DNA of 64,000 nt from Watersipora subatra. Lineage: Eukaryota > Bryozoa > Gymnolaemata > Cheilostomatida > Watersiporidae. The translations under genes and the position numbers were made by a program. Positions 1,629-1,999 of the stretch are shown here, one piece after another. The notes under the pieces were generated by a model. That model did no database searches. It saw nothing but the letters and a program-made list of their open reading frames with translations, and was not told the origin of the DNA. The stretch is from the NCBI RefSeq assembly GCF_963576615.1, contig NC_088711.1, positions 39,800,621 through 39,864,620 of the forward strand, written 5' to 3'. Position 1 is the stretch's first letter. Each line of letters begins with the position of its first letter.

Positions 1629-1633
1629 CTCAT

Positions 1634-1679
1634 GCTACAGACAGTACTGTTTCGGCTATTGAAGCCTCATCAGTGCAGC
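1634..1679 (-). ncRNA. Type I hammerhead ribozyme, copy 1
   Basis: Minus-strand order: stem I strand GCTGCA, CTGATGA, stem II GGCT–TCAAT–AGCC, GAAA, stem III CAGT/ACTG, then GTC and the cleavage point between 1640 and 1639, followed by TGTAGC, which pairs with GCTGCA (six pairs, one wobble). All core nucleotides of the hammerhead are present in the right order. Stem III has no loop, as in the weak-stem-III hammerheads of animals that act best as dimers. Seen directly by hand folding; activity is not shown. Confidence 0.85.
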
Positions 1680-1892
1680 TCAGAGCTTAGGCAAGGGACA
1701 CAAATCCAATTACCAATGAGAGTTGACTTCCTGCCATGAAACAACTAGGTTGGCTCACAGACTTTAAAAAAGTCAATAAGCTGGCACCAGAGTGCTCAAA
1801 TCACAAAAGTGATGAGCTTTGCACAATGGCTAATAGTGCCGCACCTCTCACAGAGTGCTCAACCAAACCGAAGTAAGGAAGCAAATACTCAT

Positions 1893-1938
1893 GCTACAGA
1901 CAGTACTGTTTCGGCTATTGAAGCCTCATCAGTGCAGC
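1893..1938 (-). ncRNA. Type I hammerhead ribozyme, copy 2
   Basis: An identical core, stem I, stem II and stem III to copy 1, displaced by exactly 259 bp. The predicted cleavage point is between 1899 and 1898. Two intact cores in tandem are what is needed to process a monomer from a longer transcript. Confidence 0.85.
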
Positions 1939-1999
1939 TCAGAGCTTAGGCAAGGGACACAAATCCCATTACCAATGAGAGTTGACTTCTTGCCATGAA

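Follow-up and report, generated by a model that had tools for sequence, protein, structure and literature searches.

Metazoan non-LTR (long terminal repeat) retrozymes are described as short tandem units that carry type I hammerhead ribozymes (HHRs), have a GC content below 50%, occur in many copies and share a genome with Penelope-like elements (PLEs) that bear HHRs of their own (PMC7229834; here and below, published systems are compared on the basis of excerpts of the cited sources). In plants, LTR retrozymes combine type III HHRs with LTRs, a primer-binding site and a polypurine tract (PMC7761336). How the circular RNA is primed has been left open for metazoan retrozymes (PMC7229834), and a 2020 review, in the part available, reports no conserved motif in them that would reveal an autonomous partner element (PMC7761336). 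Here we describe a 64,000-nucleotide stretch of the genome of the bryozoan Watersipora subatra (contig NC_088711.1, positions 39,800,621 to 39,864,620; hereafter the window, with coordinates counted from its first letter), in which a 259-bp tandem unit with type I HHRs is inserted at a TA repeat. The element is almost certainly a non-autonomous metazoan non-LTR retrozyme, a class already known. What is new is its footprint: the genome displays the start site and the target, together with a signal that may be the one recognised. Compared with the metazoan retrozymes of PMC7229834, the bryozoan genome allows the target, a fixed start past the cleavage site and the descent of each array from one molecule to be read. 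With plant retrozymes, the element has HHR-flanked repeats in common, circular RNA being only predicted in the bryozoan, and it is set apart from them by its type I HHR (PMC7761336).

The insertion in the window spans 374 bp (1626..1999, minus strand), or 1.44 units of 259 bp. Its 3ʹ end in the RNA sense, at ~1624-1629, abuts a (TA)52 tract (1525..1628), and its 5ʹ-truncated end lies at 1999, next to an imperfect TA tract of ~16 bp (2000..2015) that separates it from the 3ʹ end of a long interspersed nuclear element (LINE); TA tracts thus border the block, as the original prediction held. That prediction had also placed two type I hammerhead cores 259 bp apart on the minus strand, each with a 6-bp stem I, a GGCU/AGCC stem II and a GUC cleavage triplet. 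All of this proved correct, and the two motifs, one closer to the 3ʹ end (1634..1679) and one upstream in the transcript (1893..1938), are equal at 46 of 46 nt. Cleavage at both sites (1640/1639 and 1899/1898) would release a 259-nt monomer (1640..1898) with a GC content of 44.8%, and this size, as had been claimed, fits the 170-400 nt published for animal retrozymes (PMC7229834). The direct repeat formed by the insertion (1626-1740 and 1885-1999) differs at 2 of 115 positions.

Genome-wide, 1,948 places match the 46-mer HHR with no more than 3 mismatches (0 for the reversed control), and there are 597 exact 3ʹ junctions into (TA)n and 509 exact unit-unit junctions; all three figures are whole counts. 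These numbers, together with the matching units inside arrays described below, bear out the retrozyme-like repeat of the original prediction, and the genome-wide search it had proposed returned a large family. Core mutations in all other copies, the outcome named there as contrary, were not found, at least 100 of the 46-mers being exact. The family is small beside that of salamanders, with ~1,950 HHR copies against ~126,000 and a unit of 259 bp against ~330-350 bp (PMC7229834). Its features are those of the class, namely a type I HHR with an intact core, multicopy tandem units within the class range of ~150-450 bp and a GC content below 50%. A literature search on hammerhead ribozymes and bryozoa found no report from Bryozoa within the limited literature covered, and the HHR pattern had 0 matches in viral contigs. 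Other retrozyme families, sought as an HHR core at most 38 nt from (TA)n with a non-T base in CUGANGA, were not seen, T-bearing families not being searched apart; the 69 rows of that search fall into 14 places, of which 11 belong to this family and 3 are PLE-like.

The hammerhead is more conserved than the remainder of the unit. Across 26 insertions (loci L031-L060, 30 chosen by their 3ʹ junction, with four near-duplicates dropped), mismatches occur at 9 of 1,870 HHR sites and at 146 of 6,338 sites elsewhere in the unit (Fisher p ~1e-8, to be read with the shared ancestry of the units and with five HHR positions that fall within the selecting pattern). Diversity across the first units of 33 arrays gives the same direction (0.015 in the HHR vs 0.038). 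Tempering this, equal conservation is reached by 25 of 259 circular windows, so that the HHR is not unique by diversity. As judged from sequence comparison, the ribozyme is kept in the family. Ordinary satellite DNA, homogenised by unequal crossing-over or gene conversion and carrying a relic hammerhead, would account for units that are tandem and homogeneous inside an array, but 597 exact junctions with one 3ʹ end in (TA)n, the existence of inserts below one unit and the conservation of the ribozyme make this origin very improbable.

A strict type I descriptor has three matches in the window, the two retrozyme motifs and the HHR of a neighbouring PLE copy (1350-1395, plus strand), and none in 300 control windows made by shuffling two-base blocks. 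At the gathering cut-off, Rfam gave no match in the whole window. A permissive Rfam search of 701 bases returned the retrozyme HHRs as weak Hammerhead_HH9 matches of 23.5 and 20.9 bits, where the gathering score is 52 and several chance matches in TA tracts outscore both. In the covariance-model check proposed for them, the motifs fall short of the gathering score. The original prediction erred over stem III, which it described as 4 bp without a loop; such a stem is unable to close as a hairpin. The sequence CAGUACUG could instead form 2 bp closed by a GUAC tetraloop, or an 8-bp duplex that joins two units. Because stem III is so short, the HHR likely acts as a dimer with neighbouring motifs paired, by analogy with salamander retrozymes, which likewise have a weak stem III; in the axolotl motif Amex2, stem III is 2 bp long under a tetraloop, and such motifs cleave better as dimers (PMC7229834). 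As candidates for the loop contacts between helices I and II that mark the class, the retrozyme HHR may have an internal UGA/AU loop in stem I and a UCAAU loop in stem II. Folded as a circle, a genomic unit exceeds all 200 of 200 shuffles in stability (z -3.35); the linear fold of the window unit lies within the ordinary range (z -1.06; 32 of 200 shuffles as good). Forced into the HHR conformation, the motif reaches -11.5 kcal/mol, short of the -20.6 kcal/mol of its best local fold (tertiary contacts uncounted). One retrozyme HHR elsewhere (G000, C8:17277009-17277082, minus strand) carries a compensatory stem II change, GGUU/AACC for GGCU/AGCC.

The ends of the insertions are asymmetric. Their 3ʹ end is fixed ~12-16 nt past the HHR cut, inside the single UAUA, where it abuts (TA)n, while 5ʹ ends are ragged. 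In 30 loci chosen by unit similarity and not by 3ʹ end, 24 of 26 distinct elements, inspected by eye, end in GAGTAT or GTGTAT and then pass straight into TA-rich DNA. Set against this regularity are L010, which ends a few nt earlier, and L002/L004, which joins PLE sequence and not TA. Copies that end at the HHR cut and continue into 10 A/T bases number 1 exact case genome-wide, compared with the 597 exact 3ʹ junctions. Target-site duplications cannot be delimited, as the targets are TA repeats. Several 3ʹ junctions are clustered a few tens of bases apart within one TA tract at C2:36461439-36461530.

Insert length varies from 14 bp up to ~6.8 units, the longest (L056) being shown by seven HHRs at 259-bp spacing and extending past its locus edge in the length table. 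Among 29 tabulated inserts (from 30 junction-chosen loci, all on C1, with L059 dropped as a repeat of L058 and the near-duplicates L035/36, L041/42 and L047/48 kept), 14 surpass one unit, and 4 measure no more than 19 nt. Of these shortest four, L035/L036 (18 nt) cross the cut and L041/L042 (14 nt, one place) stay short of it. A linear cut monomer primed at UAUA would yield at most ~16 nt and therefore is not the template for the remaining inserts. Since the 3ʹ end lies ~12-16 nt past the cut, the RNA template of these remaining inserts must have been continuous across the cut, either as a circle or as an uncut multimer.

The homogeneity of arrays bears on this choice. Units inside one array differ by a mean of 0.9 (30 pairs, 15 arrays), and the first units of separate arrays differ by a mean of 9.3 (528 pairs, 33 arrays), so that on sequence each array resembles one molecule copied over several laps. 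The alternative is an uncut linear multimer, read off an array that was there before, with the ribozyme serving something else. It gains some credit from the fact that some units of one array do differ, and if the source array were uniform to begin with, its multimer would produce a footprint hardly different from that of a circle. Such a template predicts inherited mixed units, yet 16 of the 23 columns that vary within arrays carry an allele absent from all other arrays, and only one is a common polymorphism; the greater conservation of the HHR relative to the remainder of the unit also speaks against it. Telling the other way, 6 of the 23 columns have both alleles elsewhere, one of them in only 1-3 arrays. 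On balance we consider the multimer improbable and TA-primed copying of a circular RNA template very likely.

Which enzyme would copy the circle is a separate question, for which a PLE and a LINE are the candidates. The original prediction was right that a Penelope-like copy lies alongside the retrozyme (1..1524), in two oppositely oriented arms (frames 259-762 on the minus strand, 539-1105 and 1109-1357 on the plus strand), but adjacency does not hold as evidence for a helper, given that PLE, retrozyme and LINE all sit in (TA)n. The case for the PLE can be made from its start sites. The 3ʹ end of the window PLE copy, site A (1524), abuts the same (TA)52 tract as the retrozyme, and a second PLE 3ʹ end, site B (1464, plus strand), is used elsewhere in the genome by arms of opposite orientation. 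The RNA past the start sites would read UAUA-CUUG-CUCC at site A, UAUA-ACA-CUCC at site B and UAUA-UG-CUCC in the retrozyme. Among the 12 TATA sites of the PLE unit, only A and B, which are used as 3ʹ ends, carry N2-4-CTCC. The retrozyme unit from L013 has just one TATA, its start, and this carries the motif as well; of 2,002 TATA sites across the remainder of the window, 3 do so. TATA-N2-4-CTCC as a signal common to PLE and retrozyme is suggestive on these sequence grounds.

Several results weigh against this reading. The start motif was noticed post hoc, and in 1,277 of 100,000 draws, three TATA sites picked at random agree as well; with PLE sites A and B kept fixed, 2 of 1,050 background sites match the motif, again post hoc, so that chance would yield such agreement in roughly 0.2-1% of cases. 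Retrozyme and PLE have no further convincing similarity, their best short matches (E = 4) being equal to those between retrozyme and LINE. A 60-nt alignment of the two past the start is equalled by 64 of 5,000 shuffles, and equally high scores come from 29 of 2,400 reverse-strand PLE windows. The internal start site of the window copy is itself mutated (TATT, TTCC). Finally, within the flanks analysed, 23 of 47 distinct retrozyme loci contain LINE sequence, and 6 of 47 a PLE protein match.

The LINE frequency is among the points in favour of the alternative that an R2-group LINE ending in (TA)n, not the PLE, mobilises the retrozyme. The window contains the 3ʹ part of such a LINE (2018..3538, minus strand; open frame 2111-3538), which has an R2 protein match and ends in (TA)n; the nearest named relatives of its protein outside Watersipora are fish proteins. 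From motifs, we take it to carry a restriction-like endonuclease. The 21 listed LINE 3ʹ ends with distinct tails each have a TA run within ~15 nt, less cleanly in L030. Furthermore, according to the excerpted source, microsatellites are the target of some lineages in this group that bear an endonuclease (PMC4640811). The LINE is about equally common at PLE loci (11 of 26), however, its 3ʹ end has no convincing similarity to the retrozyme, and the CTCC motif follows 0 of 9 TATA sites in its available 3ʹ part. Because the LINE lies near retrozymes and PLEs about equally often, co-location reflects a common target, and proximity of either LINE or PLE was rejected as helper evidence. We regard mobilisation by the LINE as unlikely and the PLE as rather probably the enzyme that copies the retrozyme.

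The PLE carries a reverse transcriptase, as judged from a 730-aa model of the copy in L079 (predicted local distance difference test score, 85): Foldseek returned 331 matches at E 0.001 or better, and those shown are reverse transcriptases and related polymerases. The reverse transcriptase motifs DFYPS and YRDD are conserved in 34 PLE sequences, and copies with an open 730-aa frame exist. The same 34 sequences conserve a TYIGL...R..H stretch after a Cys cluster, which we presume to be a GIY-YIG endonuclease. Pfam at E 1 gave no GIY-YIG match in the PLE, a PDB sequence search with part of it gave no match, and the fold lists of the model contained no endonuclease, although these lists are filled by the reverse transcriptase part and are hence uninformative. 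The HHR of the window copy (1350..1395, plus strand; expected cut 1389/1390) has a G-U closing pair in stem II and overlaps the stop codon, whose TGA is part of the CUGAAGA core, as it also is in L079. PLE 3ʹ ends lie in TA-rich DNA in 27 of 30 cases and continue in tandem in 3 of 30; tandem copies have a period of 2,400 bp, with 0 of 765 compared positions differing. By eye, diverged PLE copies that end in (TA)n are present in the flanks of L009, L021, L028 and L080, and a looser descriptor found full HHRs in L009 and L028 and partial cores in L021 and L080. A second PLE family, sought for comparison of the CTCC motif, yielded no recognisable tandem copies.

PLE insertions also occur as inverted pairs. 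A sample of 30 loci chosen by site A (L063-L091 and window 1-1524) includes 16 that have a partner arm, and all 16 combine an arm ending at site A with one ending at site B. The 5ʹ end of the A arm maps to window 1340-1343, ~10 nt 5ʹ of the PLE hammerhead, in 16 of the 30. The pairs look like the result of paired two-strand priming on RNA with a fixed 5ʹ end; a single palindromic family was rejected, the 5ʹ-5ʹ junctions being different. The PLE Poseidon of the green anole (PAc) is comparable in having an internal reverse transcription start, two adjacent start sites, an AT-rich target, extension of both strands and an HHR just 5ʹ of the start sites (PMC11167929). It differs in that its start is non-homologous to the target, whereas the bryozoan sites, TATA-N3-4-CTCC, could pair with a TA target; moreover, the two arms of bryozoan pairs use different sites, and PAc is described without a strand difference (PMC11167929).

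Other repeats in the window were noted in passing. A second, diverged PLE copy lies at 48412-49629 on the minus strand (pieces 43-60% identical), and no HHR was seen by eye in 541 bases around and past its end. An element of ~760 bp with terminal inverted repeats (CAGTCAAACATGGATAACTCG...), recognised by eye, sits inside a TA tract at ~3563-4326 and, to our eye, resembles a pogo/Tigger-type miniature inverted-repeat transposable element. A sequence that starts CTAGCTGTGC (TACCCGGCGTTGCCCG; ~49996-50040) abuts a TA tract, with a near copy beside TA in locus L045; the CTAGCTGTGC sequence is another TA-associated repeat. A tandem array of a 60-bp unit (34.5 copies, 93% matches) occupies 14529-16606.

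A cycle can be proposed that joins these elements. The type I HHRs in the minus-strand transcript of a tandem array would cleave it to 259-nt monomers, which would be ligated into circles, by analogy with the pathway published for other animals. A nicked TA tract would then prime reverse transcription on the circular RNA at its single UAUA, and one circle, sometimes copied for several laps into the TA microsatellite, would leave an array of near-identical units. The PLE would be the likeliest enzyme, given start sites that share TATA-N2-4-CTCC with the retrozyme. We infer expression, cleavage, circles and reverse transcription alike from genomic sequence, which tells against the scheme; as a whole, a retrozyme whose circle is copied from a TA primer, with the PLE as likeliest enzyme, seems to us probable. 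A more general proposal, to which we give an even chance, is that animal retrozymes parasitise PLEs through the PLE start signal, the PLE protein recognising UAUA-N2-4-CUCC in the circle, priming from a nicked TA microsatellite and copying several laps.

For metazoan retrozymes, the genome of W. subatra offers a concrete helper hypothesis, consisting of a fixed start, a defined target and a motif common to the retrozyme and the two start sites of an abundant PLE. If the proposal is true, the helper so far missing for these elements would be named. Additionally, the data suggest how a tandem array can form all at once, a point relevant to where hammerhead satellites come from; under the proposal, tandem, satellite-like arrays would be born in one insertion.
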